A DNA stretch of 64,000 bases from the NCBI RefSeq assembly GCF_000269805.1, contig NZ_JH711481.1, positions 621,779-685,778 on the forward strand, in the 5' to 3' direction. Positions 23,371 to 41,573 of the stretch are shown piece after piece. Within the stretch, counting starts at the first letter, position 1. Each line of letters begins with the position of its first letter. A program made the position numbers and the translations under genes. Source of the stretch: Actinomyces massiliensis 4401292 (GTDB lineage: Bacteria > Actinomycetota > Actinomycetes > Actinomycetales > Actinomycetaceae). The notes beneath the pieces are model-generated. The model searched no databases. It saw nothing but the letters and a program-made list of their open reading frames with translations, and was not told the DNA's origin.

Positions 23371-23717
23371 GAGCGCGCCTCGGTCGTCGCCGTCGAGCTT
23401 TCCAGGATGGCGGAGAAGGCGGTGCGGAAAGAGCGCCATTCCGCCCGGCGGGCAGCCAGTTCGTTACGGCCCGCCGCCGTGAGCTCGTAGTACTTGCGGG
23501 CCGGTCCGGAGGCGGAGGGTCGCGTGGAGGTGCTCACCAGGCCGCGGCGCTCCAGGCGGGTCAGGGCCGGGTAGAGGCTGCCGCCGGGAACGTCCTCCAG
23601 GCCCGCCGCGCTCAGGCGGCGCATCAGTGAGAGCCCGTAGTCGGGGCCGGGTGTGAGGAGGGCGAGGAGGCAGGGCTCTAGGAAGCCTCGCAAGAGGCGG
23701 GAGGTGGAATCGCTCAT
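23367..23717 (-). CDS. PadR-family transcriptional regulator
   Basis: Winged-helix repressor of 116 residues (LEPCLLALLTPGPDYGLSLM, then GGSLYPALTRLERRGLV and RKYYELTAAGRNEL). PadR proteins of this short class repress adjacent transporters and are released by a small-molecule inducer. It is the first gene of the ABC transporter operon. A perfect inverted repeat at 23737-23755, 20 bases before its start codon, is the likely operator. Confidence 0.9.
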   Translation of the reverse strand: MSDSTSRLLRGFLEPCLLALLTPGPDYGLSLMRRLSAAGLEDVPGGSLYPALTRLERRGLVSTSTRPSASGPARKYYELTAAGRNELAARRAEWRSFRTAFSAILESSTATTEARS

Positions 23718-23736
23718 GTAGGTAGGTTAACTGGTT

Positions 23737-23755
23737 ACTAGTCTGTCTGACTAGT
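23737..23755. promoter_or_regulatory. Likely PadR operator
   Basis: Perfect inverted repeat ACTAGTC-TGTCT-GACTAGT just before the padR start, placed where it would block the promoter or early elongation. The flanking GGTTAACTGGTTAC adds partial symmetry. Confidence 0.6.
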
Positions 23756-23799
23756 GGTGCCGCTCGGATCGCGGTGAGGCTGTGCGGTGGGGCCGTGCG

Positions 23800-23872
23800 C
23801 GTCGAGATCGACTTTTTCGCACGAAGACGACGGTGTCACCGTCGATCTCGTTCGAGAATGTCGATCTCGCGA
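23800..23872. repeat. 73-bp palindromic repeat, copy B
   Basis: Centred on 23836, with outer GTCGAGATCGAC / GTCGATCTCGC arms and the same GACGGTG-T-CACCGTC centre as copy A. It lies after the response-regulator gene stop and before the padR promoter, consistent with a terminator role. Confidence 0.85.
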
Positions 23873-23959: not shown

Positions 23960-24664
23960 CTACGAGGCGGTGGCGCGGTCGGAGGATGCGTATCCGAAGG
24001 TGGTGGCGTATCCGTGCCGGAAGGCCCATACGACGATCTCCAGGCGGGACTTCGTCTTCGTCTTGCTGAACAGCACGGAGATGTGGGACTTGACCGTGGC
24101 CTCGGAGATCGACAGCTGCGAGGCGATCTTGCGGTTGGAGGCGCCCTCGCACAGCATGTGGAGGACGTCGCGCTCCCGCTTCGACAGGGCGACGCTCCCG
24201 TCCTCGGTGTGGGCGGATGCCAGCACGTAGTCGATCAGGCGCGCGGTCGACATCGGGGCGACCACCTTCGCCCCGGAGTGGACGGTTCGCACGGCGGAGA
24301 GGATCTCCTCGGCGGGCGCGCTCTTGAGGAGGAAGCCGCTGGCGCCCGCGCTCAGCCCCTGGATGAGGCTGTCGTCGGTATCGACAGTGGTCAGCAGGAT
24401 GACGCTGGTCTCGGGGGAGACCCGCAGCGCCTCCCGCGCCACCTGGGCTCCGTCGATGTTCTCCATGTGGATGTCGGTGATGAGGACGTCCACCCGGCTC
24501 GACTCGAGGAGCTCCAACATCTGGTCGGCGCACCGCGTCGCAAGTAGGACCTGGATATCCTCCGGCGGGGTGAGAAAGGATTCCAGGCAGGTCAGCGCCA
24601 TCGCATCGTCGTCGAGGAGTACGACGGTGATGCACTCAGGGTCGGTGGCGGTCAGGGAACTCAT
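23960..24664 (-). CDS. NarL/LuxR-type response regulator, orphan
   Basis: Two-domain regulator of 234 residues. The receiver domain shows the acidic pair (LLDDDAMALT), the phospho-acceptor Asp in ITDIHMEN and the conserved Lys in FLLKSAPAEE. The C-terminal LuxR helix-turn-helix reads LSKRERDVLHMLCEGASNRK and then ASQLSISEATVKSHI. The start at 24664 has AAGGAG four bases upstream. No sensor kinase is encoded nearby. Divergent from the RiPP operon across about 490 bases, so it is the natural candidate for the cluster's activator, which is inference. Confidence 0.9.
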   Translation of the reverse strand: MSSLTATDPECITVVLLDDDAMALTCLESFLTPPEDIQVLLATRCADQMLELLESSRVDVLITDIHMENIDGAQVAREALRVSPETSVILLTTVDTDDSLIQGLSAGASGFLLKSAPAEEILSAVRTVHSGAKVVAPMSTARLIDYVLASAHTEDGSVALSKRERDVLHMLCEGASNRKIASQLSISEATVKSHISVLFSKTKTKSRLEIVVWAFRHGYATTFGYASSDRATAS

Positions 24665-25152
24665 ACATCTCCTTGCGACGTAACCGGCTCGAGCCGAGGT
24701 CAGAGATGTCCGCGGCCTCAAGGGAGATAACGATAATATTACGATTCAGAGCGCCTGGGTAATCCCGCTTGACGGTGCTCGTCAGGCGCGAGTTTCGTGG
24801 TCTTGTGAGGTCGTGCCGCCCGGCCCTTGAGGCGCTGGCGCGCGGCAGTGGATCTGCAGTGGATGAGCGGGATCGGCAGGGGAGCCGGCTGAGTCGGCAC
24901 AGTCAGTGAGGATCAGTGGCGCCGGAGCCGACGCTCCCAACGGTCTCCAGTGAACCCCGACCTCCTTCCACCGGCGGTGCGCCGAAGGGATGAGCGTGGT
25001 CGTTCGAATAGTGAACGGGCACACACTCAAAAAGAGACATCACAGTGGCCTGATGGCCGATACATGATTCCGCACCTCACCGGGCAGACTCTTCGGTCAA
25101 CGGCACATTCCTGAAAATGTGTTGGCCCTGTCTCACCCTGGAAGGCGGATCC
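24665..25152. promoter_or_regulatory. Divergent promoter region between response regulator and RiPP operon
   Basis: The stretch ATAACGATAATATTACGATTC (about 24727-24747), unusually AT-rich and partly palindromic (CGATAATATTACG), probably holds the regulator's promoter or a regulator-binding site. From 24780 to 25110 I see no gene. The YcaO promoter should lie in the last 150 bases, near TATTCGAACGACC-like sequence at about 25003-25015. Confidence 0.45.
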
Positions 25153-26529
25153 GTGTACCGATCTGCGCTCGACGAGCGAATCGCTCCTTCACTGGCCCGC
25201 GCGGCGTCCCTCGAGTCGTCGGTCGGCCTGGTGTCCCGCACTGCGGAGCTGCCTCAGGCTCCCGGGGAACCGGCCTTCTCGATCTGGACCGGATTCCTCG
25301 GCGACCTCTCCGCACCGCTGGCCTCGCAGAACACCTGGAATCACCGGGTTGAGTCCGGCAACATCGACGGCGCCGGGGGCGCCATCGACCCCGATCTCGC
25401 CAGGCACATCGCCATCGTGGAGTCCCTGGAGCGCTACTCCAGCTGCGCATGGGCGGCCGAGGACCTGATCTGGGACACCCCCGCCGGACTGGGCGAGGCC
25501 GCCGTCGGGCCGGAGCGCTGGCCCGCCTGCTCGCCCACGGAGTTCGCGGACCCGCACTGCGGGCTGATCCCCTCCGACCCCAGGGTGCCGCTGCGCTGGG
25601 TACGGGGCTGGTCCCTGACCCGAGGATGCGAGGTCTTCGTGCCGGCCATCCTGGTCTACCTCAAGTTCCCGGTGCGCAGCCCCTCCGAGCGCTTCATCAA
25701 CATGGTGTCCACCGGTACGGCCGCCCACTCCGACCTGCACGAGGCCGTCCTCGGCGGTCTGCTGGAGGTCATCGAGCGCGACGCCATCGCCATGACCTGG
25801 CTGCAGAGGCTGCGCCTGCCCGAGGTCACAGTAGACCCCGACGCCCTCGGCCCCGAGGTCGCCGAGTACTACCGGGCCGGCACCTCCACCGAGCTGACGG
25901 TCCACCTGCGGGACGCCACCACCGACTACGGGGTCCCGATCCTCTACGCCGTCCAGACCTCCGAGGTCGACACCGAGCTGGCCCAGGTGGTGGCGGCCAC
26001 CTGCGACCTCGACCCGCAGCGGGCGCTGGCCAAGATCTACCGCGAACTCGCCTCCCTGCGCATCGCCCTGCGCAGTCACGCCCGCAGCCCCCGCGCCCAG
26101 GAGGTCACCGGCCAGGACATGACGGTGGTCGGCGGCGCCCTGGCCGATGCCGCCCCCGACATGCGCGGCGTCTTCGACTTCCTGCTGGAAGGACCCCGAC
26201 CCGTCCACCGGCTGGATGACATGGGACTGCCGGAGCTCCGCAAGACCGCCGGATCCGGAGCATCCGACGGTGCCGATCCGCTGGGGAAGGTCGTCTCTGC
26301 ACTGGAACGCGCCGGATCGGAGGCCATCGTCGTCGATATCACCACCGACGAGGCCCGCCAGGTCGGAATGCACGTGGTCAAGGCCCTCGTTCCCGAGGCC
26401 GTGCCGCTGTCGTTCAGCCACCACGCCCGCTACCTCGCCACCCCCCGCCTCTACGAGGCACCCCGCGCCATGGGCCTGACCGCTCATGACGAGGCCGATA
26501 TCAACCCCGTCCGTCAGCCCTTCGCCTGA
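25153..26529 (+). CDS. YcaO-domain cyclodehydratase (azole formation)
   Basis: ATP-dependent YcaO enzyme that converts Cys/Ser/Thr side chains of a precursor peptide to azolines. About 458 residues; recognisable blocks are the ATP-binding IAIVESLERYSSCAW region (residue about 90), RFINMVSTGTAAHSDLHEAV with GLLEVIERDAIAMTW, and KIYRELASLRIALR. The GTG at 25153 has GGAAGG seven bases upstream; an ATG at 25117 lacks a ribosome site. The C terminus ends NPVRQPFA, a Pro-containing tail as in azole-forming YcaOs. First gene of the RiPP operon; the partner leader-binding domain is encoded in the next two genes. Confidence 0.9.
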   Translation: MYRSALDERIAPSLARAASLESSVGLVSRTAELPQAPGEPAFSIWTGFLGDLSAPLASQNTWNHRVESGNIDGAGGAIDPDLARHIAIVESLERYSSCAWAAEDLIWDTPAGLGEAAVGPERWPACSPTEFADPHCGLIPSDPRVPLRWVRGWSLTRGCEVFVPAILVYLKFPVRSPSERFINMVSTGTAAHSDLHEAVLGGLLEVIERDAIAMTWLQRLRLPEVTVDPDALGPEVAEYYRAGTSTELTVHLRDATTDYGVPILYAVQTSEVDTELAQVVAATCDLDPQRALAKIYRELASLRIALRSHARSPRAQEVTGQDMTVVGGALADAAPDMRGVFDFLLEGPRPVHRLDDMGLPELRKTAGSGASDGADPLGKVVSALERAGSEAIVVDITTDEARQVGMHVVKALVPEAVPLSFSHHARYLATPRLYEAPRAMGLTAHDEADINPVRQPFA

Positions 26530-26547
26530 CCCACCCGCAGGAGAATC

Positions 26548-27201
26548 ATGAGCACCAGTACTGCCAGTACTGCCGCGCAGAGGCCGGTGACGGCCTACCT
26601 GCCGCAGGGGCGCTTCGGGCACGCCGTCGTCGAGCACCTCGCCGAGCCCCAGGACGTCGTCCTGTCCGTGGACCACGGCCTGGTCTACGCCTCGGTCCCC
26701 TACGCCGACCGGCTCGTCATGATCAGCGACGCCGACCGCACCCCCGTGCGCGAGGCGCTGGACGAGGTCTCCTTCGTCCGCTCCCTGCCCTCCCTGGGCC
26801 TGGAGCTGACCCCCACCGAGCTGCGCTGCGGACCCCTGGTGGTGCCCGGGCGCACCGCCTGCTACCACTGCTACGCCCGACGTCGTCAGCAGCACGGCTA
26901 CCGTCCGCTGCCCGATGACCTCGAGCCGCTGCCGCAGGGCTACGCCAGGCATCACGTGGTCATCGGTGCCGGGCTGGTCAGGCTCGCCCTGGGGGTTCTG
27001 GACCATGGCGACCCCGCCGACGGGAGCACGGGCGATGACGAGCTCGGCGGGCAGGTGTGGACCGTCGACCTCGTCTCCGGGCTGACCTCCCTGGCCCGGA
27101 CCGTCGCCACCGATCGCTGTCAGACCTGCTCCGGGCGCTACGCGACCCGGCGCGACGCAGTGCCCGCACTCGCCGCCCTCCTGCCGGAGCGGGTGATCTG
27201 A
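26548..27201 (+). CDS. E1-like/leader-binding-type RiPP protein with CXXC zinc motifs
   Basis: 217-residue protein with two CxxC pairs (CYHCYARR near residue 107 and CQTCSGRY near residue 191) that can form the tetra-thiolate zinc site typical of ThiF/E1-like proteins in azole RiPP clusters. The body (GRFGHAVVEHLAEPQDVVLS, TELRCGPLVVPG) resembles the bacteriocin cyclodehydratase-partner domain. AGGAGA precedes the ATG, 18 bases after ycaO. I infer that it supports the YcaO reaction or scaffolds it. It lacks an obvious N-terminal RRE, which is carried by the next gene. Confidence 0.65.
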   Translation: MSTSTASTAAQRPVTAYLPQGRFGHAVVEHLAEPQDVVLSVDHGLVYASVPYADRLVMISDADRTPVREALDEVSFVRSLPSLGLELTPTELRCGPLVVPGRTACYHCYARRRQQHGYRPLPDDLEPLPQGYARHHVVIGAGLVRLALGVLDHGDPADGSTGDDELGGQVWTVDLVSGLTSLARTVATDRCQTCSGRYATRRDAVPALAALLPERVI

Positions 27202-29202
27202 ATGGCCGAGAGAGTCGACAGCATCGACGGCGTCAAGAGCCCTGAAAGCCCTGCGAACCCTGAGAACCCTGCGGCGTCGGCGGCCTCGGCGGCCTCCGGG
27301 ATGCGTGCGGCCGATGTGGGCCGTGCGGCCCGCCAGGACCTGCAGTTCCGCATTCCCCGCAAGCCCGTGGTCCGACTCGGGGTGCGCATGCGCCCCGAGG
27401 ACGAGACCTGGGTGCTCGAGGGCGGGCGCAAGCGCCAAGTTCTGGGCGGAGCCTTCGCACGCGAGCACCTGGGCGCGCTGCTTCAGGCCTGCGACGGCAC
27501 TCGCACGCTCGACCAGATCGCTGAGGCCATGGGAATCGGCCCGGGCGGTGCTTTCGAGGCCGTCTCCCTGCTGTGGACCGGCGGCATCGTCGAGGAGGGC
27601 GACACCGACCCGCTCCCCGACCCGCAACCGGCTCCGGAGCTGGCCTGCCTGCTGTCGCGCCTGGGCGAGTCCACGGGCGTCAACGACTCCTGGCAGGACG
27701 CCGCCCGTCGCCTGGCGGCCGCCCGCGTGGCGGTTCTGGGGGACGCCGCGCTCGCCGACGACGTCGTCAGCGCCCTGTCCCCCACGTTGGCGGTGGCGGC
27801 CCGGGCCGCCGCTGTCGAGCCCGGCGACACCCTCGCCGTCGTTGTTGAGACCGCTGAGGCAGCCGAGACCGGTGACGCCGGCAGCGCGATCAATCGCTGC
27901 TGGGAGCTCGGCGTCCCCCTGCTGCGCGTACGGGCCGAGCATGACGCGGTCACGATCGGACCGTACATCGACCCGAGCTTCTCGCCCTGTCCGCAGTGCG
28001 CCACCGCCGGCGAGTCCGACCCGGGGCCGGTGCCGGGGCCGGACCGCAGGGACCTCGCCGGCGGTATGGCAGCCCGGGCTGTGGCCGCACTCATCGCCCG
28101 CGCCACCATGATCCACCTGCCGGGCGACATCCGGCGCATCGACCTGGAGACCTTCAGGCATACAGACCATCCGGTGACCACCCGTCCGGGGTGCCCCATC
28201 TGCTCGATCACGGGAGGCTCAGGACAAGCCGACGAATCGGACGGGCCATCCGCGCCGGTCGCGCAGTCGGCCCCCGTCGGGGCCCGCTACGAGCAGGCCG
28301 TGGCCATCCCCCCGGCCGGGTTCGTGGACTCCAAGGGCCACCAGCAGCACTACAAGCCCTCCAACCTGCGGCTTCAGCGCGAGTTCCGCGACTGGCCCAA
28401 CTGTCCGCGCACACTGCTGCCCGACGCGGACCTGGAGCGCTTGAACCGGCCCTGGCCCCTGGGCGGGGCGGGTGCGCAGGCGGCGGGCAGTTCAGGCACT
28501 CCGGTCTCGGACAGGACTGTCTCGGACCGGACTGATGACGGCCCGGAGGCGCCGATCGGTCGGCCAACGCTCACCGAGCTCGCCACCGTGCTGGCGCTGG
28601 CGGTCGGTGTGCGCGAGCCGCTGCGCCCGCAGGAACAGGACGCCGACGCTCCCGCCGACGCCTCGAAACTGCGCCGGTGGACGGCGGCCGGCGGCAATAT
28701 CGGCTCGGTCACCGCCTACGTCCTCGTGCCCGACGCCGGGGCTTCCGGGGCCGGGGCCGCCAAGAGTGTCGGGGCTTCCGGGGGCGCCGGATCGCCGGCC
28801 CCGCTCGCCCCGGGCGTCTACACCTACATCGAGCGCGACCACGCCCTGGCCCAGGTGGGGCCGCCGCCTTCTCCGGCATCTCAGGGCTCCGACGGCCCCG
28901 GGGGCTCGACGACTCCCGAGTCTCCCGAAGGCTCGGAGGCCCGCGATGCAGGGGTGCGAATCGTCCTGACCGGCAATGTGGACAAGCTCTCCAAGAAGTA
29001 CATGGCCTTCGCCCTGCGACTCGCGATCCAGGACTGCGGCTGCTCCCTGGAGACCCTCCGGATCGTCGCCCGCTGCTTGGACCTCCCCCTGCGCGCTCAG
29101 GCCCGCTGGGACGAGCGGGAGCTGTCCGCCGCCATCGGCGTCGATCCGGCGCGCGAACCGATCGTCGCCGTCGTTGATCTGGGAGGCCGCCATGCGCACT
29201 GA
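27202..29202 (+). CDS. RRE–E1-like–SagB dehydrogenase fusion of the RiPP cluster
   Basis: 666-residue fusion. Residues about 45-135 form an RRE-like winged helix (GGAFAREHLGALLQACDGTR and a following EAVSLLWTGGIVEEG). Residues about 160-340 are E1/ThiF-like with zinc pairs CPQC and CPIC. Residues about 350-660 are a SagB-type flavin dehydrogenase (GVYTYIERDHALAQV, LTGNVDKLSKKYMAFALRLA, AIQDCGCSLETLRIVARCLD) that would oxidise azolines to azoles. It starts immediately after the previous stop. Pro/Ser/Gly-rich linkers (about 410-430 and 490-510) separate domains. Such fusions unite leader recognition with dehydrogenation. Confidence 0.75.
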   Translation: MAERVDSIDGVKSPESPANPENPAASAASAASGMRAADVGRAARQDLQFRIPRKPVVRLGVRMRPEDETWVLEGGRKRQVLGGAFAREHLGALLQACDGTRTLDQIAEAMGIGPGGAFEAVSLLWTGGIVEEGDTDPLPDPQPAPELACLLSRLGESTGVNDSWQDAARRLAAARVAVLGDAALADDVVSALSPTLAVAARAAAVEPGDTLAVVVETAEAAETGDAGSAINRCWELGVPLLRVRAEHDAVTIGPYIDPSFSPCPQCATAGESDPGPVPGPDRRDLAGGMAARAVAALIARATMIHLPGDIRRIDLETFRHTDHPVTTRPGCPICSITGGSGQADESDGPSAPVAQSAPVGARYEQAVAIPPAGFVDSKGHQQHYKPSNLRLQREFRDWPNCPRTLLPDADLERLNRPWPLGGAGAQAAGSSGTPVSDRTVSDRTDDGPEAPIGRPTLTELATVLALAVGVREPLRPQEQDADAPADASKLRRWTAAGGNIGSVTAYVLVPDAGASGAGAAKSVGASGGAGSPAPLAPGVYTYIERDHALAQVGPPPSPASQGSDGPGGSTTPESPEGSEARDAGVRIVLTGNVDKLSKKYMAFALRLAIQDCGCSLETLRIVARCLDLPLRAQARWDERELSAAIGVDPAREPIVAVVDLGGRHAH

Positions 29203-29908
29203 CTACGAGATCCTGCGAGAGATCATCGGCGGCTTCTCCGACCCGGACGCCGTACCGACCTCCGACGGCCTGGCCGCACGGCGCCCGCGCCGGCCGCTGG
29301 ACTGCGAGGTCCCCGACGCCCTCGCCCCGCAGGCTGACGGCCCCTACCCGTACGACCTGCGCCAGACCTTCGAGCGGCGCTCCTCGACCACCGACTACGC
29401 GCCCGAGCCCCTGGATGCCGCGCCCCTTCTGGCCAGCGTGCAGGCCGCCCTGGCCGAGGAGGCCGAGGCCTGGGGCGAGGAGGCCGACGTCGTCGGCCTG
29501 GAGCCCTTCGTCCTGCTTCTGCGGGCTCGCGGCGCCCGACCGGGCGTCTACAGGGTCGGGCCCGACGGTGCGGACCTCGTGCGCGAAGCGCCGAGCCCAG
29601 AGGAGATCGAGGGGATGACCGTCCAGAAGGAGTTCGCCCGCGCCGGGGCCATCGTCTCGATGGCCGCCGATCTGGACCGGGCCGACGCCTGGGCCGGGGC
29701 CCACGGCTACCGTCACGCCATGGCGCGCGCCGCCGCCGTCATCTACTCGGTGCACCTGCGCAGCGCCGCCCGCGGCCTGACCGGAACCGTCTTCGCGGGC
29801 CTGTCGCCCTCGGCCGTGCGCCGCCTGCTCGACTCCGACGGAGTGAGCCGTCACCAGATGCTCGCCGTCACCGTGGCCGTCCCGGCCCGCGCCGCGCCGT
29901 CGTCCTAG
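29192..29908 (+). CDS. Second SagB-like nitroreductase-fold protein
   Basis: 238-residue protein with nitroreductase-fold features: FERRSSTTDYAPEPLDAAPL near residue 55, a PGVYRVGPDGADLV strand, and a C-terminal half (MARAAAVIYSVHLRSAARGL, TGTVFAGLSPSAVRRLL). The usual FMN-binding N-terminal GRRSSG-type block is only partly present, so it may heterodimerise with the SagB domain of the preceding fusion. The ATG at 29192 has GGGAGG upstream and overlaps the previous gene by 11 bases; frames reaching further upstream are artefacts. Confidence 0.7.
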   Translation: MRTDYEILREIIGGFSDPDAVPTSDGLAARRPRRPLDCEVPDALAPQADGPYPYDLRQTFERRSSTTDYAPEPLDAAPLLASVQAALAEEAEAWGEEADVVGLEPFVLLLRARGARPGVYRVGPDGADLVREAPSPEEIEGMTVQKEFARAGAIVSMAADLDRADAWAGAHGYRHAMARAAAVIYSVHLRSAARGLTGTVFAGLSPSAVRRLLDSDGVSRHQMLAVTVAVPARAAPSS

Positions 29909-29928
29909 CCGGACACGGCTCCCATAGC

Positions 29929-29979
29929 CGCCCCGTTCCGCGGGGCGAGGGGCCCGGCCCGTGCAAGACCGGACCCCTC
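29929..29979 (+). promoter_or_regulatory. Tandem hairpins before the precursor gene
   Basis: Hairpin 1 has CGCCCCG/CGGGGCG arms (29929-29935, 29941-29947). Hairpin 2 directly follows with 11-base arms (29947-29957, 29969-29979; one mismatch). Placed 21 bases after the dehydrogenase stop, they may attenuate transcription or stabilise a processed 5' end of the precursor mRNA. Confidence 0.6.
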
Positions 29980-30045
29980 AATGAGGCCCGACAAGGGCCT
30001 CGCTCCTGACCAGTGACACGAACCGGAGAGGAGGTGAACAAGCAT

Positions 30046-30237
30046 ATGGCTAACACCATCGATCTGACACTGACCGACAGCGATTTCGGCGTTGAGGAGC
30101 TCCCCGAGGGCAACGCTCTGGGTTGCGCCTTCTGCGGCGGCTGCGCGTCGTGCCCGGGTTGCGCCGCCTGCGGCTCCTGCCCGTCCTGCGCCGCTTGCTC
30201 GTCGTGCCCGTCGTGCTCGTCATCGTCGTCCTGTTGA
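30046..30237 (+). CDS. RiPP precursor peptide with period-3 Cys core ([CXX]n polyazole type)
   Basis: 63-residue precursor. The acidic leader is MANTIDLTLTDSDFGVEELP, followed by EGNALG and then the core. Cys occurs at 27, 30, 33, 36, 39, 42, 45, 48, 51, 54 and 57; position 60 is Ser and 63 is Cys, so 13 cyclisable residues keep an exact three-residue spacing. Between them are Gly, Ala, Ser, Pro and one Phe. This is the [CXX]n arrangement described for heterocycloanthracin/sonorensin precursors of Bacillus. The ATG at 30046 has a strong GAGAGGAGGTGA site; an in-frame upstream GTG at 30013 is unlikely. It is embedded in its modification operon and flanked by hairpins. Confidence 0.88.
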   Translation: MANTIDLTLTDSDFGVEELPEGNALGCAFCGGCASCPGCAACGSCPSCAACSSCPSCSSSSSC

Positions 30238-30250
30238 GACGTCATTCACG

Positions 30251-30285
30251 GCGGCGGGCGGAGGAGCTCCCTCCGCCCGCCGCCC
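30251..30285 (+). terminator. Strong hairpin after the precursor gene
   Basis: Perfect 15-base GC-only arms (30251-30265 and 30271-30285) around a five-base loop, 13 bases after the precursor stop. Probably a partial terminator or 3' stabiliser that lets precursor mRNA exceed mRNA for the downstream enzymes. Confidence 0.75.
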
Positions 30286-30325
30286 CCTATGCCACTTCGA
30301 TCCGACCTGAGGGGGCCCTGACCCG

Positions 30326-31519
30326 ATGACCACGACGACGAGTCCGGCGAGGATGTCGAGCAATGACATTCCGCGGCTGCGCCGAGGGGTCAAGCTGATC
30401 GTCGGGATGGATGATCAGCCGATGCTGTTCGACTCCGTGTCGGGCGCCTACCACCGCCTCGGAGGCGCCGCCGCCTTCATCGTCGATCAGTTCGACGGGG
30501 CGCGCTCCCTGCCCACGATCATCGACCAGCTGCCCCAGGAGATCGACGCCGCCGGCAGGCAGCGCATCGCTCGTCTCGTGGAGTACCTGCGTTCCAAGAG
30601 CCTCTTGGAGGGCGGAGCGCCCCCCAAGGTCGTCGTCCAGCAGGAACGGGCCCGCAAGCGCGCCGACGGCCGACACGTCGCACCGCCGCACGTCGGAAAG
30701 CACGAGCAGATCCACCCGCCCCGCTGGAACGGCAACTGGATGCTGCCCCGATTCATGCTGATCCGCAGCTACCGCCGGGCGGTCGCGCCCGTGGTGACCG
30801 CACTCCATCACCTGCCTGCGCGCGCACTCGGCTGCCTGTTCGTTCTCGCCGCTGCCGGAGGCTACGCGGCGGGGGTGGAGGGCCTGATCCATCTGGCCGG
30901 AGGCCCGCTCCCGCCCGCGCGCGTGTACGTCATCGCCGTCGCCATCCAGCTGGTGAGCATCGTCGGGCACGAGTCCTGGCACGCGATCGTGGCCGGCTAC
31001 CTGGGAACCCCCGTGCGCGGTCTGGGAGTGGCGTTCATGTTCTGGGTGCTGCCGATCGCCTACGTCGACCGTACCGACTCCTACCGCGTGCGCTCGCGGC
31101 TCGGGCGCGCCATGCTCGCTTTCGCGGGCATCTGCTCCGACGGCGTGGTGTGCGGTGTGGAGGCCGCGGTGGCCGCGGCGTTCACGGGCGAGGTGCGGCA
31201 GGTGGCGCTGACCCTGTGCGCCTTCCAGCTCACCATGCTCGTGACCAATCTCAACCCCCTGACCCAGTCCGACGGCGTGGCCACGGTCGAGGCCCTGACC
31301 GGCTCGGTCAACCTGCGCGGCCGCTCCATGCTGATCCTGCGCAGCGTCTTCACGCGCGCACCGCTGCCCCCCGCCCTTGCCCGCATGCGGCTGACCGTGC
31401 GCGGAGCCTACTTCCTCTACGGCCTGGCGTGCGCGCTGCTGAGTGTGGTCGGCACCGTGTTCGGCGTCGCCTGGCTGGGCATGATCGTGGTGGGCATCGT
31501 GAGAGGAGTGCTCGCCTGA
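30326..31519 (+). CDS. PqqD-like–M50-type membrane zinc metalloprotease fusion
   Basis: 397-residue membrane protein. Residues about 15-95 look like a PqqD/RRE-type domain (DSVSGAYHRLGGAAAFIVDQ, FDGARSLPTIIDQL). The rest has about six membrane spans with a zinc-protease HESWH motif near residue 214 and the third-ligand NLNPLTQSDG motif near residue 310, the site-2-protease (M50) arrangement. Related 'peptide zinc metalloprotease' proteins are found in bacteriocin clusters. Inferred role: leader removal and possibly release of the mature peptide at the membrane. It starts 16 bases after a GAGGGGG stretch and ends in a TGATG overlap with the dehydratase gene. Confidence 0.75.
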   Translation: MTTTTSPARMSSNDIPRLRRGVKLIVGMDDQPMLFDSVSGAYHRLGGAAAFIVDQFDGARSLPTIIDQLPQEIDAAGRQRIARLVEYLRSKSLLEGGAPPKVVVQQERARKRADGRHVAPPHVGKHEQIHPPRWNGNWMLPRFMLIRSYRRAVAPVVTALHHLPARALGCLFVLAAAGGYAAGVEGLIHLAGGPLPPARVYVIAVAIQLVSIVGHESWHAIVAGYLGTPVRGLGVAFMFWVLPIAYVDRTDSYRVRSRLGRAMLAFAGICSDGVVCGVEAAVAAAFTGEVRQVALTLCAFQLTMLVTNLNPLTQSDGVATVEALTGSVNLRGRSMLILRSVFTRAPLPPALARMRLTVRGAYFLYGLACALLSVVGTVFGVAWLGMIVVGIVRGVLA

Positions 31520-34323
31520 TGCGCACTGAACCCGCTGACCCCACTGAATTCACTGGACTCGAGGCCGGTGCCGCGACTATGACTGCGCCCGATCGTGTTG
31601 CCACTACTGCCGCTGCTCCCGCACCCGCTCCCGCGCTGGACCACGCACCCGCTCCCGCGCTGGACCACGCACCCGCGCCCGCTCGCGCCGCTGGGCCGGT
31701 CCCGCTGCTCCCCACGCTCGTGCGCCTGGGCGGCCTTCCGGCAGCGGCCGTCCCCCGGCCCGGCAATGCCCTCGTCGAGGCCCTGGAGGGGCTGAGCCGC
31801 CTTGACGAGGAGATGGAGCTGGCCGGCGATCGGCTGCTCGACCCCCTGTACAGACTCATCCCCGACCTGGAGCGCAATGAGAGGCGAGCGGTCCTGCACG
31901 CCAAGCGCAGAGTGTTCCAGGGGCGCGTCAGCGGCCTGCCGCCGCAGGTGCGAGCGGGCCTGCCCGCCGACGTCGGCGCCATGCTCGCCGTCTGGGACGA
32001 CCTGGTCTCCCAGCGGCGCGCTCAGTACGCCCGCCTGGAGGCGGCGGTGGCCTCGGACCTGGATCACAGCCGCACCCTGCTGGCGGCCGGCCTCGACGAC
32101 GCCGAGTACCTGCGCGCCCTCGCCATCGCCGCCCCCGCACTGGTGGCGGCGCTGACCAGACGCGGGCGCCGGCTCGACGACTCGCGCGTGCTGCGGACCC
32201 TCTACACGATGGCGACTCGCACGGCCCTGAAGACCAGCCCCTTCTCCGGTCTGACGACTGTGGCCGAGGCCGGCAGGCCGGCTCGCGGGCGCCGCCGCTG
32301 CACGGTGGCGCTCCACCTCGCCTACGGAATCCTCGCCGCGACTGCGCGCGATCTCGATCCCGCCGGCCTCCTGCGCCTGGAGGCCGCTCCCGTCAGGCGG
32401 GCGCCGGCCATGAGCATCGCCGTCGTCGCCGGGGGGAGTGGCGACGGCGATGGGGCGGTTCCCGGCGGTACCGCGGCCGAGCCCGGCGGTACCGCAGCTG
32501 CCGAGCCCGGCGGTACCGCGGCCGCACAGGCGAGCGCGCTGACCATCGTCGCCGAGCACGGGTACGCCAATGCCATGGTCTTCCGGCGCCAGGAGGTGCA
32601 GCCGGCCCGATGGCTCGCAGCCGCTCACGACCGCCTGACCGGTGGGCGCCCCGATGCGGAGCCGGTGAGCGTGCGGGAGGCCGCCCGACTCGTGGGCGGA
32701 CGGGATCCGCGCCTGCGCCTGCGCCGTCTGCTGTTCTCCGGGGCCGTGCATCCCCGAGCCCCGTGGTCGCGGGGTGCGGACCCCCTTCCCGCCCTGGCCG
32801 CCACGCTCTCAGAAGCGCAGCGGCGCGCCTGGGGCGAGGACCTCGGCCGGCTCGGGCGTCTCGAGCGGCTCGTCGAGACCGAGGACGGGTCCGCGCGGGC
32901 GGAGCTGCTCACCGACGTCCAGCGCTTGGCGCAGCGCATCTTCTCCGACGGCGAGCTGGGGGCCAAGCCGGGCGGCCTGCTCTACGAGGACTGCGAGTCC
33001 AGAGGGCAGTGGCCCGATCCGATGGAGCTCGAGCCGTTGCGGCGGGATATCGAGACCCTGACCGGGCTCGTGGACCCCTGGGTGACTCGTTCTCACATCT
33101 ACGACCTCATGGTGCGCCGGTTCGTCTCCCGGTACGGGCGCGGCGGAGTGTGCGAGGACCCGCTCTCCTTCCTCATGACTCTGGCGCACGCGCCCGACGG
33201 CGACACGGAGATGATGGGTGCGGTCGCGCGGGACATCTCCGCCGGCCCCGACCCCGAGCGCGCGGCCATGCCCGGTGGCGTCTCGGCCTCGCCGCGGCAC
33301 ATGGGCGCCTACCTGCAGCCGGTTCTCGCCGGTTCGGATGGGCCTGCCGGGGCCGCCGGGCCTGCCGGGGCAGGCGGTTCGCAGGCGCTCGGCACCGGCG
33401 GCCTGACGGTGGTCAACGCCTTCACCAATGGCAATGGGGCCCTCCAGACCCGCTTCCACCGGTTGCTGGGCGATGGCTACCGCGAGCGCCTGGCGCGAGG
33501 AGTCCGCACCGCCTGGGGCCTGGAGCGCGTGCTGGAGATCGAGGTCGCCACCGACTGCAATACGGCTCAGGCCGCGGCCTGCGGCGTCCTGCCCCCGCTC
33601 GGCCTGCCCGGCGAGCCCGCGGCGCCGGACGCCGTGCCCCTGAGCTCGCTGAGGCTCGCGCACGATCCGCCTACCGACACCCTGTTCCTGAGCGACGACC
33701 ACGGGCCGGTGGGAGTGGCCTACCTCGGGCTCATCCCGCAGTACCGACTCGGCGGTTACATGTCCTGGCTGGCTCTGCTGGGCGATCCGTGGGCCCGAAT
33801 GGCCCCCTTCGCGGATCACCGGACCAGTCGGAACCTTGACATGACCGGACCGCTGCCGGATGAGGTGGTCCACTCCCCGCGCTCCTCCCATGGGCGCCTG
33901 GTCACTCGTCGGGAGTCCTGGACCTTCCCGGCCTCCCGGGTGACCGAGCTCCTGGACCGCGATCTGGCGGCCACCCTGGTGAGAGTGGCGAGACTGCGCG
34001 ACCAGTGGGGGATTCCCGCGGAGATCTACGTCCATCAGCATATGGATTCCCGGGCGGACCCCGGCGCCACCTTCGACGAGCACAAGCCGCGGTACGTGGA
34101 CCTGCGGTCGCCGGTGTCGCTGCTGGCACTGCACGGCTGGATCGACCCCGACGTCGAGCACCTGACCCTGGTCGAGGCCCTGCCGACCAGGGATGAGCTC
34201 GCGGGTACGACGCCCGACGGCGAGGCGACGGTGCTGGAGTATCTGATCGGCATGCAGTGGCCCAAGTGGCCTAAGGGGCCCAAGGGGCCCAATGGGCCGC
34301 AGATCGGTGGAGGTGACTGGTGA
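31519..34323 (+). CDS. Lantibiotic dehydratase-type protein, glutamylation (LanB N-terminal) part
   Basis: 934-residue protein of the split LanB class that attaches Glu from Glu-tRNA to Ser/Thr of the precursor. Family features: TRTALKTSPFSGLTTVAEAG near residue 235, the RFVSRYGRGGVCEDPLSFL region near 535, NAFTNGNGALQTRFHRLLGD near 640 and a C-terminal AEIYVHQHMDSRADPG block. The start at 31519 overlaps the preceding stop (TGATG); a 120-residue upstream extension is out of place because it overlaps the protease gene. An Ala/Pro repeat near the N terminus (31617-31680) and a GGTAA-type repeat (32460-32520) are low-complexity insertions. Confidence 0.8.
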   Translation: MRTEPADPTEFTGLEAGAATMTAPDRVATTAAAPAPAPALDHAPAPALDHAPAPARAAGPVPLLPTLVRLGGLPAAAVPRPGNALVEALEGLSRLDEEMELAGDRLLDPLYRLIPDLERNERRAVLHAKRRVFQGRVSGLPPQVRAGLPADVGAMLAVWDDLVSQRRAQYARLEAAVASDLDHSRTLLAAGLDDAEYLRALAIAAPALVAALTRRGRRLDDSRVLRTLYTMATRTALKTSPFSGLTTVAEAGRPARGRRRCTVALHLAYGILAATARDLDPAGLLRLEAAPVRRAPAMSIAVVAGGSGDGDGAVPGGTAAEPGGTAAAEPGGTAAAQASALTIVAEHGYANAMVFRRQEVQPARWLAAAHDRLTGGRPDAEPVSVREAARLVGGRDPRLRLRRLLFSGAVHPRAPWSRGADPLPALAATLSEAQRRAWGEDLGRLGRLERLVETEDGSARAELLTDVQRLAQRIFSDGELGAKPGGLLYEDCESRGQWPDPMELEPLRRDIETLTGLVDPWVTRSHIYDLMVRRFVSRYGRGGVCEDPLSFLMTLAHAPDGDTEMMGAVARDISAGPDPERAAMPGGVSASPRHMGAYLQPVLAGSDGPAGAAGPAGAGGSQALGTGGLTVVNAFTNGNGALQTRFHRLLGDGYRERLARGVRTAWGLERVLEIEVATDCNTAQAAACGVLPPLGLPGEPAAPDAVPLSSLRLAHDPPTDTLFLSDDHGPVGVAYLGLIPQYRLGGYMSWLALLGDPWARMAPFADHRTSRNLDMTGPLPDEVVHSPRSSHGRLVTRRESWTFPASRVTELLDRDLAATLVRVARLRDQWGIPAEIYVHQHMDSRADPGATFDEHKPRYVDLRSPVSLLALHGWIDPDVEHLTLVEALPTRDELAGTTPDGEATVLEYLIGMQWPKWPKGPKGPNGPQIGGGDW

Positions 34324-35357
34324 CCACGGTGCAGAACGACGTCGGCGCGGGCTCGCCGAGACCCCGGGCGGAGAGCAGCGGCCCCCCGGCAGGAGACCTC
34401 ATGACGACGGGATCCGGCCTGCTCGCCGGGATCGACCCGTCGGCGGAGGAGCGCTCGCCGGCCGAGGGCGGTCCGAGCGCCGCCTCGGTTCCGACGGGCC
34501 GGGATGACCGGGATGGTCGGGATGATCGGGATGTCGACTGGCTGTATGCGCGCATCTACTGCGACGGCGGGGACGACACCGACGCCCTGCTGCCCGACAT
34601 CGCGCGATGGGTGGATCAGATCCGCGCCCGCCGGCCGATCCGCTCCGTCCACTTCCTGCGCTTCATCGACCTGCGCGGCCACCATGTAAGGCTGCGACTG
34701 CAGGCCGCTTCGGATGTGCTGGACGAGGCCTTCGATCGTCTTGACGCCCTGGACGCGGCATCCCGGCGGGCGCGGGTGCGCGTGGTCGAGCGACTCGTCC
34801 CCGATCCGATGACCGCCCCCACCGGCAGCGGCCGGGCGGGCGCGGTGTGCTCGGTGTACGGGCCCGAGTACGACAAGTACGGCGGTCCGCCGGGGGTGGA
34901 GGAGGCCGAGCGGCATTTCGACGTCTCCAGCCGCTGGTGCTTGGAGAACCGGGTGTGGACGGTGCCGCGTCCGCTGCCCAGGGTCGCTCTGACCGCTCGC
35001 TTCCTGGCGCGTGCGGCCGCCGTCGGATCATTGCCTGCGGATGAGCTGTTGGGCACGCACCTGCGCACGTGGGGGCCGCGGCTCCCCGAGCGTTTGCGCG
35101 ACGGCGCCGTCCTCGGCCCCGTGGTGCGTCAGGTGCTCGGGTGCCGCCTGGAGGAGGAGCCGGGATGGGAGCGGGTCGATGACCTGGTTGAGCAGTTGGC
35201 CGCCGACGCCGCCCTCACCGCGCGCAGGATCGGTGCCGGCCCCGGCGGGCGCCGGGCCCTCGACGTCATGCACATGGATGCGAATCGTTTCGGCGTCAAC
35301 CCCGCCGAGGAGTGCGTCGCCGGGGTGTGCGCCCGCTACCTGCTCGGTTCCGGCTGA
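34320..35357 (+). CDS. Thiopeptide-type bacteriocin biosynthesis protein (LanB C-terminal/elimination-like)
   Basis: 345-residue partner of the split LanB, overlapping the previous gene by four bases. After an 80-residue hydrophilic extension come DWLYARIYCDGGDDTD, the IRSVHFLRFIDLRGHHVRLR strand and a GPEYDKYGGPPGVEEAERHF motif with the following DVSSRW, typical of the SpaB_C/thiopeptide-type domain. In thiopeptide pathways this fold either eliminates glutamate to form dehydroalanine or acts as the [4+2] cyclase. With only one copy here, elimination is the likelier role. Last gene of the operon. Confidence 0.8.
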   Translation: MTTVQNDVGAGSPRPRAESSGPPAGDLMTTGSGLLAGIDPSAEERSPAEGGPSAASVPTGRDDRDGRDDRDVDWLYARIYCDGGDDTDALLPDIARWVDQIRARRPIRSVHFLRFIDLRGHHVRLRLQAASDVLDEAFDRLDALDAASRRARVRVVERLVPDPMTAPTGSGRAGAVCSVYGPEYDKYGGPPGVEEAERHFDVSSRWCLENRVWTVPRPLPRVALTARFLARAAAVGSLPADELLGTHLRTWGPRLPERLRDGAVLGPVVRQVLGCRLEEEPGWERVDDLVEQLAADAALTARRIGAGPGGRRALDVMHMDANRFGVNPAEECVAGVCARYLLGSG

Positions 35358-35443
35358 GGCGGTAGGGGGTGGCTGCTGCCGGTGCCACCGTTCCCGCCGG
35401 CGCTTGCGCTTCTGCCGGCTTCTGGCTCCCGCCAGTGCTTGCG

Positions 35444-35516
35444 CGTCGAGGTCGACATTTTCGAATGAGATCGACGGTGCCACCGTCGATCTCATTCGAA
35501 AATGTCTATCTCGACG
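35444..35516. repeat. 73-bp palindromic repeat, copy C
   Basis: Centred on 35480 with one arm mismatch in the inner 57 bases. Both arms carry the same change relative to copy A (GAATGAG paired with CTCATTC), so pairing is kept. It sits between convergent gene ends (RiPP operon and Rrf2 gene). Confidence 0.9.
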
Positions 35517-35536
35517 GGGTGGGCGCGTCGGTTTCT

Positions 35537-36046
35537 CTACCTTCTGGGTTTTCCGGTTTCTCTGTTCGCACCTGATGCGGCGTCGGAGAGGATGGTCGAG
35601 GTGCGGTGCTTGAGCGTGGAGGGAAGGACTGAGACCAGGTCGGCGATCGTCTTCTTCGCGAGTTCGGATCGCCAGGCCGCATCGGCGGAATCCACGAGCG
35701 TGTGAATGATGCACCTACGCCGGCATTCCTCAGGTGTGGCGGCACCGAGGCCGTGACGACGAATGTCCTGACAGGTGAACGCGGGCGCCGTGCCCTCAAT
35801 GGCCTCGAAGACGTCCAGAGCAGTGATTTTCTCCGCTGGAGCGGCCAAGCGGTACCCGCCTTTGGGGCCCGTGGTGGCCACCAGTACGCCCGCGGCGACC
35901 AGACGACGAAGGTACTTGGCCAGGTACGGCTCGGGCAGGTCGTAGAACTCGGCGATCGTCCGCCGTGAGGTCCACGCGCCCTCGGGGGCCTGCGCCAGCA
36001 GGACCGCCGTATGCATGGCCCACTCCACTCCCGTCGAGACGCGCAT
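35537..36046 (-). CDS. Rrf2-family transcriptional regulator
   Basis: 169-residue winged-helix regulator. The DNA-binding part is SRRTIAEFYDLPEPYLAKYL and a TGPKGGYRLAAPAEKI wing. Three conserved Cys lie in TCQDIRRHGLG, EECRRRC, the position of the Fe-S cluster in IscR/NsrR-type proteins, so redox or nitric-oxide sensing is possible. Divergent from an MFS exporter; a perfect palindrome 34 bases beyond its start codon overlaps the exporter start and is the probable operator. Confidence 0.88.
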   Translation of the reverse strand: MRVSTGVEWAMHTAVLLAQAPEGAWTSRRTIAEFYDLPEPYLAKYLRRLVAAGVLVATTGPKGGYRLAAPAEKITALDVFEAIEGTAPAFTCQDIRRHGLGAATPEECRRRCIIHTLVDSADAAWRSELAKKTIADLVSVLPSTLKHRTSTILSDAASGANRETGKPRR

Positions 36047-36079
36047 GGACGTCAGTGTCGCATACTTTCAACGCTTTGC

Positions 36080-36106
36080 TATTGTGGATACATGACATCC
36101 ACAATA
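36080..36106. promoter_or_regulatory. Perfect palindromic operator overlapping the MFS start codon
   Basis: TATTGTGGAT-ACATGAC-ATCCACAATA: perfect 10-base arms with the MFS ATG (36092-36094) inside the seven-base spacer. Placement between the divergent Rrf2 and MFS genes makes it the likely Rrf2 site, repressing the exporter and perhaps its own gene. Confidence 0.75.
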
Positions 36107-37486
36107 CGACATCAGGGCATGATCCTGGCGATACTGCTCGTCGCTGCGTTCATGGGGCAGTTCGACTTCTTCGTCGTGAACGTCGCGGCTCCGGCTGTCC
36201 AGGAGGCGCTGGGGGCGAGCGAGGCCGGACTCGAGCTCATCGTGGGCGGCTACGCCTTCGCGTATGCCAGCGGACTCATCGCGGGTGGTCGCCTCGGCGA
36301 TATGTACGGGCATCGGCGGATGTACCTGTGGGGAATCATGCTCTTCGCGGCGACGTCTCTGCTGTGCGGGGTGAGTGCATCCGCCGGATTCCTGATATTC
36401 GCGCGAATAATGCAGGGTTTTGCTGCTGCGGTCATGATTCCGCAGGTGCTGGCGTCCATCAATGTTGTTCTGCCGGGCGAACGACGCGGGTGGGCCATGG
36501 CCTGGTACGGCGTCGCCACCGGTGTCGGGTCGATTGCGGGCCAGATTCTGGGGGGATGGTTTATTCACGCCGATCTCATGGGGCTGGGTTGGCGCGTTAT
36601 CTTTCTCATCAATGTGCCCATTGCTGTGCTCACGTTCGTGGCGACGCTTCTCATCATTCCTGGCAGTCGGCGTCCGGAGGCGCCCACGATCGATGCGCCG
36701 GGAGCTGTCGGCATCTCCGTGTCGCTGGCTGCCATGCTTCTGCCCTTCGTCCTCGGGCGTCAGAATGGGTGGCCCGTGTGGATGTGGGGCGGTCCGGTTG
36801 TCGGCGTCATCCTTTTATTGATCGTCATTCGTATGGAGAATCGACGTGCGGCGCGCGGTGGTGATCCCGTGCTCGATACGAGGGTCATCGTTATTCCCTC
36901 ATTGGCGCGCGGCCTGATCGCATCCGTACTATTCATGACTTTCTTCGCCAGTTTCATGTTCAGGCTGACTATTCTTCTGCAGCAGGGCGAGCATATCGAG
37001 CCTCTGTATGCCGGATTGGTATTCGCGCCGTCGGGCGTCACGTTTGCACTCAGTTCCCTGCTCATGCGGGGATGGGTTGCTCAGAATCGAGAACGAGCTG
37101 TTCGGACTGGCGCGTGCGTGACCATGATCGGCCTGCTCATCGCCGTCCTGGGTCTGACTGTTGAGGCTCTGCCCACAGTGCCCCTGATCGTGGCGGCGGT
37201 GTGTGCGACTGGATTCGGGAACGGGCTGGTTCTGCCCACTCTCATCGGGCTCGCGCTCTGCGATGTTCCGTTGGCGAAATCCGGCGTCGCCAGCGGGACG
37301 ATGACCGCTTCTCAGCAGTTCGCGGCGTCGGCGGGGGTCGCGCTTCTGGGGACGCTTTATTTCGCGTGCTCCGCCTCGACTGGGCACGAGCATGCGATGG
37401 CATGGACTCTGGTCGTTGACATCGTTCTGCTGATCGCCGTCATTCTTGTTGCCGGGTTGCCGAGGCGTTCAGCGATAGAGGGATGA
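36092..37486 (+). CDS. MFS drug exporter (DHA2-like)
   Basis: Major facilitator with about 14 spans (464 aa). Motifs: FDFFVVNVAAPAVQEALGAS in span 1, GGRLGDMYGHRRMYLWG (motif A) near residue 70, and RIMQGFAAAVMIPQVLASIN (motif B/C region). Probable proton-driven efflux of a toxic compound. The ATG at 36092 has no ribosome site and lies within the palindrome, so the transcript may be leaderless; the alternative ATG at 36119 (after CAGGGC) would shorten the N terminus by nine residues. Confidence 0.85.
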   Translation: MTSTIRHQGMILAILLVAAFMGQFDFFVVNVAAPAVQEALGASEAGLELIVGGYAFAYASGLIAGGRLGDMYGHRRMYLWGIMLFAATSLLCGVSASAGFLIFARIMQGFAAAVMIPQVLASINVVLPGERRGWAMAWYGVATGVGSIAGQILGGWFIHADLMGLGWRVIFLINVPIAVLTFVATLLIIPGSRRPEAPTIDAPGAVGISVSLAAMLLPFVLGRQNGWPVWMWGGPVVGVILLLIVIRMENRRAARGGDPVLDTRVIVIPSLARGLIASVLFMTFFASFMFRLTILLQQGEHIEPLYAGLVFAPSGVTFALSSLLMRGWVAQNRERAVRTGACVTMIGLLIAVLGLTVEALPTVPLIVAAVCATGFGNGLVLPTLIGLALCDVPLAKSGVASGTMTASQQFAASAGVALLGTLYFACSASTGHEHAMAWTLVVDIVLLIAVILVAGLPRRSAIEG

Positions 37487-37506
37487 CTCTCGATTCCCGG
37501 TTCCCG

Positions 37507-37534
37507 CTCCGTCGGTCTCATTCGAAAATGTCGA
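37507..37534. repeat. Half copy of the 73-bp palindrome
   Basis: Only the right arm is present (CGTCGGTCTCATTCGAAAAT, then GTCGACCTCG), just after the MFS stop. The left arm is absent, so this copy cannot form the hairpin; it marks a deletion or rearrangement at the island edge. Confidence 0.75.
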
Positions 37535-37581
37535 CCTCGTCTACCCTGACGGGGGTGGGGTGGCGCATGGGGCGCGTGCGC

Positions 37582-37652
37582 GAGGGAGACGGCGGGGAGC
37601 GGCGGAACCGGTGTACTCCGCGTCAGCCCTCCAGGTGGTCCACCAGCTGGAA
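37582..37652 (-). pseudogene. Duplicated 3' end of purB
   Basis: Read on the minus strand, this stretch encodes QLVDHLEG and stop, the exact C terminus of the real PurB at 42419, with synonymous differences (GAC/GAT, CTG/TTG). The downstream flank is also similar. It marks the boundary of a segment inserted or rearranged next to purB and comes from a diverged allele. Confidence 0.75.
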
Positions 37653-37654
37653 GG

Positions 37655-38880: not shown

Positions 38881-39091
38881 CCGATCCCCGCCTCATTTCT
38901 CGAAAGGCGGATCTTTTCCACCACTGTCCGAGAAACGCTGAGACTTCAGTCCTTTTGAAGGTTCGTGGGTGTGCTGGGGCGTCGGAAGGTCGATTGGTCG
39001 GGAGGTTGGAGCGGGTGTGGAGTAGTCTGTACGGGGGTCGTGTTGGGCGGTCTCTGGCGTGGTCAGGTCTCCCGGTGTCGAGGTGTGGAGC

Positions 39092-39436
39092 ATGGTGGAT
39101 AAGCCGAATCAGTACAAGCAGGCGCTGAGCGCGGTGGGTAGTGCCTTCGGCTCTCACGAGGAGCCTTTCGAGACCAGTGGGTATGCCACGCTCGGGGAGG
39201 GGTTCGCTACGTCCATCTCGGGGTCGGCGTGGACGTCGTCTCAGGCTGATACGTATGCGACTGATGTGGCCGGGATCGTCGACTCGGTGCATGCGCTGTG
39301 GAAGAGCGCCAAGGAGCATGTGGCCCAGGATGTTGCTGCGGAGAGCGACATGGTCGACGATGAGGGGGAGGAGTCCTGGAAAGCGCGGTTCCTTGACTCC
39401 GCTGCGGGCGCGCCCGAGGCGGGGGTGCTCCCCTGA
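39092..39436 (+). CDS. Small WXG100-like helical protein
   Basis: 114-residue protein predicted to be mostly helical, with SGSAWTSSQADTYATDVAGI in the middle, a WXG/WxS-type turn seen in type VII (ESX) substrates, and an acidic C terminus. GAGGTG precedes the ATG at 39092. Its stop overlaps the start of the 675-residue protein (TGATG), so the two are translated together; this small-plus-large arrangement is typical of ESX substrate pairs. No recognisable catalytic motif. Confidence 0.6.
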   Translation: MVDKPNQYKQALSAVGSAFGSHEEPFETSGYATLGEGFATSISGSAWTSSQADTYATDVAGIVDSVHALWKSAKEHVAQDVAAESDMVDDEGEESWKARFLDSAAGAPEAGVLP

Positions 39437-41463: not shown

Positions 41464-41573
41464 CGTGATGGGACATAAGAGAATCCCGCAGTCGGAGCCT
41501 GTGGTGCAACCGATCGGCGATGATCCCAGTTCAGCCCCCTTGAGCCGCCTCGACGAAAGAAGCCGGTGATCGC

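Follow-up and report, generated by a model that had tools for sequence, protein, structure and literature searches.

A putative cluster for linear azole- and dehydroalanine-containing peptides with a repeat-built core in Actinomyces massiliensis

In goadsporin, azoles are described at T2, T5, and C8, the formation of dehydroalanine (Dha) at S4 and S14 requires the azoles at T5 and S15, and GodF is reported to act solely on the azole-bearing peptide (PMC5303826). The spongiicolazolicins A and B of Streptomyces sp. CWH03, described as linear azole RiPPs (ribosomally synthesized and post-translationally modified peptides) of 29 and 28 residues (PMC8838263), have been classed together with goadsporin among the azole/Dha peptides made with a split LanB (PMC10676384); the tripeptide-block pattern of nostatin A is reported for them as well, with a smaller number of dehydrated residues (PMC11583998). 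The coryneazolisins, predicted in Corynebacterium, are presented as combining YcaO with LanB-like dehydratases without a [4+2] enzyme (PMC4603692). Here we analyzed an eight-gene cassette in Actinomyces massiliensis 4401292, located on a stretch of 64,000 nt of contig NZ_JH711481.1 (the window, in whose numbering all coordinates are given), and concluded that it quite likely makes a linear RiPP containing both azoles and Dha. An earlier, sequence-only reading of this DNA had taken the combination for undescribed; according to the accounts above, however, the joint formation of azoles and Dha by YcaO with a split LanB has been described before, as goadsporin, the spongiicolazolicins, and the predicted coryneazolisins all pair YcaO with LanB-type dehydratases without a pyridine synthase. 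The novelty lies in a repeat-expanded, often Cys-rich variant whose cores have 11-15 sites in phase, and possibly in the pairing of SagB proteins.

The cassette lies at 25117-35357, with all eight genes on the plus strand, overlapping or closely spaced, and open in the window copy. Their order is YcaO, E1-like protein, a fusion of RiPP recognition element (RRE), E1, and SagB, a second SagB, the precursor, a PqqD-M50 protein, and the N-terminal (LanB-N, GodF-like) and C-terminal (LanB-C) parts of a LanB. Domain and profile searches recovered every part that the sequence-only reading had named, on that strand and with short gaps or overlaps, as follows.

25117-26529, plus strand: YcaO cyclodehydratase (D protein); PF02624 E 2.9e-66, TIGR03604 E 3e-117
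26548-27201, plus strand: E1-like protein with two CxxC motifs, no RRE detected; TIGR03882 E 4.6e-10
27202-29202, plus strand: RRE-E1-SagB fusion; TIGR03882 E 3.6e-11, TIGR03605 E 6.7e-13 (below its cut-off)
about 27355-27606, plus strand: RRE domain of the fusion, borders from the model
about 27634-28212, plus strand: E1-like domain of the fusion, borders from the model
about 28276-29199, plus strand: SagB-like nitroreductase domain of the fusion, borders from the model
29192-29908, plus strand: second SagB-like protein; profile match to nitroreductase E 5.3e-11, best single-sequence E 0.0062 to 0.092
30029-30036, plus strand: Shine-Dalgarno-like AGGAGGTG ahead of the precursor, read from the sequence, function putative
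30046-30237, plus strand: precursor, 63 aa, exceeding the cut-off of NF033482 'thiocillin family RiPP'
30046-30123, plus strand: precursor leader, 26 aa, MANTIDLTLTDSDFGVEELPEGNALG, with presumed cleavage after LG
30124-30237, plus strand: precursor core, 37 aa and stop, with a C/S lattice at 1, 4, 7...37
30326-31519, plus strand: PqqD-like domain and M50-like intramembrane protease; PF05402 E 2.4e-5 (above the Pfam cut-off), PF02163 E 0.0027 (below)
31519-34323, plus strand: GodF-like LanB N-part; phmmer E 1.9e-25 to PDB 9jhq 'Goadsporin biosynthetic protein'
34320-35357, plus strand: LanB C-part; PF14028 E 1.3e-26

The YcaO protein was the single match of its kind in the whole genome; 25153, where the sequence-only reading began it, is a later possible start than 25117. 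The CxxC-type E1-like protein was confirmed, and two CxxC motifs were found in 30 of 31 relatives, the remaining one having three, from an over-long frame. Profile matches of the fusion protein included 3eo7, ThcOx/CyaGox, TruD, MusD, and LynD, with PbtF at E 0.91 only, and its predicted model, of moderate quality (predicted local distance difference test, pLDDT, 75.2), resembles TruD, LynD, and ThcOx. LanB-N had no meaningful Pfam match and no NCBIfam match, and its sole match in the PDB (E up to 10) was the goadsporin protein 9jhq; it is probably a tRNA-dependent glutamyl transferase of the GodF kind. The PqqD-M50 protein also matched NF041824 (E 1.5e-24, below the cut-off), and HExxH together with a loose P..DG pattern was kept in 29 of 29 relatives; by its sequence, it is a probable leader peptidase/exporter. 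A plasmid search using this protein returned four records, all weak.

The core sequences carry the argument for the product. The 24 precursors of the window's type (A-type) came from 22 genomes (L005 and L050 share one genome, L007 and L046 another) and contain 20 distinct cores, behind a leader that scarcely varies between IDLTL and the closing LG across all 24. With phase counted from the first core Cys, all 266 phase 0 positions of the 20 distinct cores hold C (164), S (79), or T (23), and off-lattice Cys occurs once; because the cores are related, these counts and the shuffles below are not independent. All 12 Cys of the window core fall in one of three phases, whereas 0 of 100,000 shuffles of the core did so, which indicates that the lattice is not due to chance; in shuffles of single cores (seven of the 20 tested), an all-C/S/T phase was reached 0 to 48 times per 20,000. 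The residue before a lattice site (n = 247) is S in 117 cases, A in 104, F in 20, G in 5, and C in 1. Such Ser are followed by Cys (89), Thr (23), or Ser (5), and Ser stands directly before Cys-Pro in 48 of 48 cases. Twelve of the cores have 40 aa, and among these both C and S occur in seven lattice columns and both C and T in two, whereas Cys is absent from every column of the preceding phase. The repeat unit is about nine residues long, [C/S]AA[C/S]ASCPx, and the core lengths (31, 37, 39, 40, and 43) partly fit the gain or loss of whole units (31 versus 40 is one unit). The window core has 13 lattice sites, seven of which are preceded by a candidate Ser (positions 9, 18, 21, 27, 30, 33, and 36). 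The polythiazole peptide that the sequence-only reading expected from the YcaO, E1, and SagB proteins is thus supported by the domain and profile matches and by the core lattice, and the Dha residues that it allowed for are supported by the split LanB and by a Ser, almost never a Cys, ahead of the lattice residue.

A Ser before an azole site that is flanked by sites three residues off is the local pattern of goadsporin, which suggests azoles on the lattice and Dha at the preceding Ser, both placements on the core being drawn by analogy. We propose that the RRE of the fusion protein would bind the conserved leader, and that YcaO and the two E1-like proteins would cyclise the Cys (and Ser/Thr) standing at each third position of the core. 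Oxidation of the azolines would fall to the SagB protein or proteins; the fused copy and the separate one possibly act as a single flavin mononucleotide (FMN) dimer, as 3eo7 suggests. As in goadsporin, the GodF-like LanB-N would glutamylate the Ser just ahead of an azole, and LanB-C would eliminate glutamate to give Dha; the PqqD-M50 protein may take off the leader at the membrane. The window peptide is predicted to carry about 11-13 azoles and up to seven Dha, without a pyridine macrocycle. A more specific version is put forward as tentative: a nine-residue module (azole-Ala-Ala-azole-Ala-Dha-thiazole-Pro-x) may have been gained and lost unitwise from a peptide of about 28 residues, giving an uninterrupted run of 11-15 azoles, one at exactly every third residue, in which Cys and Ser naturally replace each other at set sites from species to species. 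Such peptides would occur in half of the sampled genus and be oxidised by a heterodimeric SagB. That the peptide acts against related bacteria, or between them, is no more than a weak guess.

A scan with LanB-C gave nine named loci, all of Actinomyces (including israelii, gerencseriae, oris, and johnsonii), the best two at 82% and 78% identity. Within the genus, YcaO (E up to 1e-60) and LanB-N (E up to 1e-15) were found in the same 24 of 49 genomes, and 23 of these had a precursor-family match; the 24th is the window genome, missed by the family search, whose precursor scores E 5.5e-8 when scanned directly. At family level, LanB-N was confined to 24 of 213 genomes and one of 36 genera. Beyond the family, YcaO at the same threshold turned up in a single further genome of the 149 sampled from the order and in one further genome of the 246 from the phylum. 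In the genus of G517, which has large genomes, a YcaO matching that of G517 was present in 8 of 199 (E up to 1e-80). The first synteny set consisted of 28 loci, namely 24 A-type loci (L047 ends before the precursor and L008 starts within the fusion gene), L058-L060, and L061. This recurrence of the cassette in related genomes argues that it is not a chance assembly. In L061 (G003), we observed a second, different YcaO cluster, with 44% identity in YcaO, two regions resembling the RRE-E1-SagB fusion, weak LanB-like matches, and no match to the PqqD-M50 protein, LanB-N, or the precursor (E up to 1e-4).

The window's gene order also occurs with arrays of shorter precursors (mostly 28-30 residues) in three more distant Actinomyces loci (L058-L060), in another family, and in the large-genome genus, and G042 contains the distant type in addition to that of the window. 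L093 and L095 have this order with several precursors between the second SagB and the PqqD-M50 protein. Of seven further loci, L104, L105, and L107 carry the full order, and L109 has no detected E1 protein and a precursor candidate after LanB-C. Only the first four genes (YcaO, E1, RRE-E1-SagB, and the second SagB) were found in L106 and L108, which have no match to LanB or PqqD-M50 and are perhaps an azole-only sub-type; L110, of which 8 kb was taken, has the first three genes only. These actinobacterial loci of the same gene order are the nearest relatives found, in place of the Bacillus heterocycloanthracin and sonorensin systems cited for [CXX]n polyazole precursors in the sequence-only reading. 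Assuming the cleavage site, cores are about 28-32 residues long in L093, L095, and L105, and they are 25-28 residues long in L058-L060. We registered 25 such distant cores, 24 of them with CP (12 from L058-L060 and 13 from L093, L095, L105, and L107), omitting three from L104, which are near-copies of those of L095, and one from L109. In those with CP, none of the 96 slots that precede an azole slot left of CP holds Cys, and one of the 96 right of it does, the right-hand count being taken in a register that moves one residue past CP and was chosen after the counts had been seen, position +3 also being 96% C/S/T; the azole slots hold 41 Cys left of CP and 7 right. As separate observations, L058-L060 each have 3-5 tandem precursors by pattern and 4-5 by hidden Markov model, and a protein downstream looks ABC-2-like by eye.

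We consider it unlikely that the product carries azoles only, its Ser being unmodified and the LanB pair vestigial or otherwise active, for example as a peptide aminoacyl-tRNA ligase (PEARL). The window core is indeed Cys-rich with many Ser, PEARLs are described as relatives of LanB (PMC11962472), one relative has a split LanB-N frame, and the loci L106 and L108 carry azole genes without LanB. However, LanB-N and LanB-C co-occur in all 29 loci that gave LanB-C, LanB-N matched the goadsporin protein alone in the PDB, and the eliminase domain is stated to be typically missing in PEARLs (PMC11962472). The bias toward Ser rather than Cys ahead of lattice residues also speaks for an active LanB pair.

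As a rule, core position 1 of thiopeptides is the Ser used for cycloaddition. We regard it as quite improbable that the cluster is of this kind, with the 345-aa SpaB_C-type protein (LanB-C) as a [4+2] pyridine synthase and a macrocyclic product. Membership of the precursor in NF033482, the match of LanB-C to TIGR03891 'thiopeptide-type', and its AlphaFold model (pLDDT 83.8), which resembles TbtD, PbtD, and LanB domains alike with an aza-cyclase ranked first, would fit such a product. The LanB-C profile, on the other hand, favours MibB (8.4e-16), MadB (2.6e-10), and NisB (1.4e-6), with TbtD and PbtD absent among the seven sequences matched (E up to 10) and one weak match to TsrE/TsrL (0.038). 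HxxxNRxG and HxRxR were found in 29 of 29 LanB-C relatives, and the His of HxxxNRxG, kept in all 29, aligns to the LLHMTCNRL stretch of MibB. This His is presumed from the sequence to be the residue corresponding to NisB H961, which is reported to be required for dehydration (PMC4341554). With the LanB-C profile (E up to 10), no second SpaB_C-type protein was found in the genome; if this sole protein were the cyclase, LanB-N would be left without an eliminase. Moreover, the A-type cores open with Cys, not Ser, in 20 of 20 cases. Given that one SpaB_C-type protein was found, that its profile leans toward eliminases, and that the cores start with Cys, we set the thiopeptide reading aside, although the structure comparison ranks a cyclase first. 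LanB-C is therefore a probable glutamate eliminase, and the separate elimination part proposed in the sequence-only reading holds by sequence, not by fold.

That the window copy is decayed or silent is hardly credible, since its eight genes are open and overlapping or close and the leader is almost invariant, even if a few relatives have stops or split frames: one TAA in the YcaO of G029, one TGA in the LanB-N of G003, and a LanB-N over two frames in L007/L046 (G021). These frame breaks in G029, G003, and G021 reflect either decay or sequencing error.

With regard to the second SagB-like protein, its assignment as a nitroreductase held by profile, but it may be a partner half rather than a second dehydrogenase. 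Searched against the PDB as single sequences, neither SagB protein had a match at E up to 1, whereas their profiles did. In profile alignments to 3eo7, a 511-residue double nitroreductase, the SagB of the fusion scored best on the first domain (35.5 bits, against 20.1 on the second), and the separate SagB on the second (43.1 bits, against -0.1 on the first). We offer it as a suggestion only that the separate SagB is the partner half of one FMN nitroreductase dimer.

Several points weigh against a linear azole/Dha product made in the manner proposed, in addition to the relatedness of the cores. The pairing of the SagB proteins is not unique, as the second domain of 3eo7 is matched by the SagB of the fusion too, and both SagB profiles match the same ThcOx domain. 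Ser 26, 32, and 35 of the window core follow lattice residues, where the rule predicts nothing. The M50 call is below curated cut-offs, and the best Foldseek match of the LanB-C model is a [4+2] aza-cyclase, in a fold that does not separate eliminases from pyridine synthases. Finally, neither an acetyltransferase nor a peptidase-type ABC (ATP-binding cassette) transporter, both known from goadsporin, was found among 19 window proteins scanned, and the cluster leaves export and immunity unexplained.

The host genome comprises 3.37 Mb in 13 contigs. Upstream of the cassette lies a probable local regulator, assigned from its sequence.

23960-24664, minus strand: divergent NarL/LuxR-type response regulator; PF00072 E 1.7e-20, PF00196 E 6.6e-19

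In 11 of the 20 other loci compared, the minus strand carries a relative of this regulator (59-83% identity) roughly 1 kb upstream of YcaO; 3 more have a weaker one elsewhere in their flanks. Downstream, purB (42419-43873) follows the cluster at 7.1 kb in the window and, as a relative, at 0.1-3.8 kb in 8 of 20 other loci. The recurrence of the regulator and of purB speaks for an old, fixed site in Actinomyces, and against the mobile-island origin that was raised by a tRNA-Asp (23711-23803) and a drop in guanine-cytosine (GC) content after 36 kb. The roughly 7 kb between the cluster and purB (35358-42418) is partly of lower GC content and holds a major facilitator superfamily (MFS) gene and a DUF6571 protein. 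The MFS gene (36092-37486) was considered as exporter but, having no counterpart in the 28 + 9 loci compared (E up to 1e-4), was left outside the cluster. At 44001-48000, GC content is again low (0.55) and the coding signal is weak. An ABC ATPase gene (PF00005; 22450-23439, minus strand) upstream of the cluster is 28-36% identical to ABC proteins near L039, L095, L104, L105, and L107, and is possibly an exporter part.

Literature searches of titles and abstracts returned no description of this Actinomyces cluster or of the longer, repeat-built, often Cys-rich A-type core. Microbiome surveys counting Actinomyces RiPP clusters may include it under another name (PMC8549736, PMC6469967), and the NCBI family model NF033482 already matches these precursors. 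Actinomyces is described as common in the human mouth (PMC8549736). If our reading is true, a mouth genus little studied for natural products would hold an uncharacterised family of long azole/Dha peptides, whose core would be a readable grammar in which phase alone assigns a residue to azole or to Dha. The natural Cys/Ser swaps would probe this grammar without mutagenesis. How an azole-dependent LanB selects its serine would become testable, as would the possibility that the two SagB proteins work as a single oxidase.

Sonorensin stands beside heterocycloanthracin as a Cys-repeat precursor system. Heterocycloanthracin shares with the window Cys-repeat precursors and a leader-binding F protein, but is described with a fused, truncated C-D cyclodehydratase and with no LanB named, where the window has separate genes (PMC4603692). 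The dehydrazoles (carnazolamide) resemble our prediction in having azoles and a Ser dehydrated before an azole, and differ in that dehydration is attributed to a DUF4135 LanMbC acting with an NHLP-leader (nitrile hydratase-like leader peptide) precursor (PMC10676384); nine proteins scanned gave no DUF4135 match. The coryneazolisins likewise combine YcaO with LanB-type dehydratases and no [4+2] enzyme in the description available, but have two D proteins against one YcaO here, and cores of 10 contiguous C/S/T, Ile, and 5-7 more, with no every-third lattice (PMC4603692). The spongiicolazolicins are probably, as compared by description only, the characterised members of the G517-type group; L095, L104, and L105 follow the window's gene order and have arrays of cores that, with an assumed cut, are 28-29 residues long, whereas the window has a single precursor gene, and its core has 37 residues rather than 28-29, 12 Cys, and repeats of about nine residues. 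Goadsporin differs in its fused cyclodehydratase (PMC4603692), YcaO and E1 being separate genes here, and in its GodH acetyltransferase and peptidase-bearing ABC transporter GodB, the PqqD-M50 protein taking the protease place here (PMC5303826); neither such an acetyltransferase nor such a transporter was found among the 19 window proteins. With goadsporin, however, the window shares YcaO azoles expected three residues apart and split-LanB Dha directly before an azole (PMC5303826), that is, a split LanB with a separate, putative eliminase and, at the level of sequence, a Ser before the azole site. By its SagD-family YcaO, its E1-like/RRE partner, and an adjacent C/S/T-rich precursor, the cluster is a putative thiazole/oxazole-modified microcin (TOMM), or linear azol(in)e, system.

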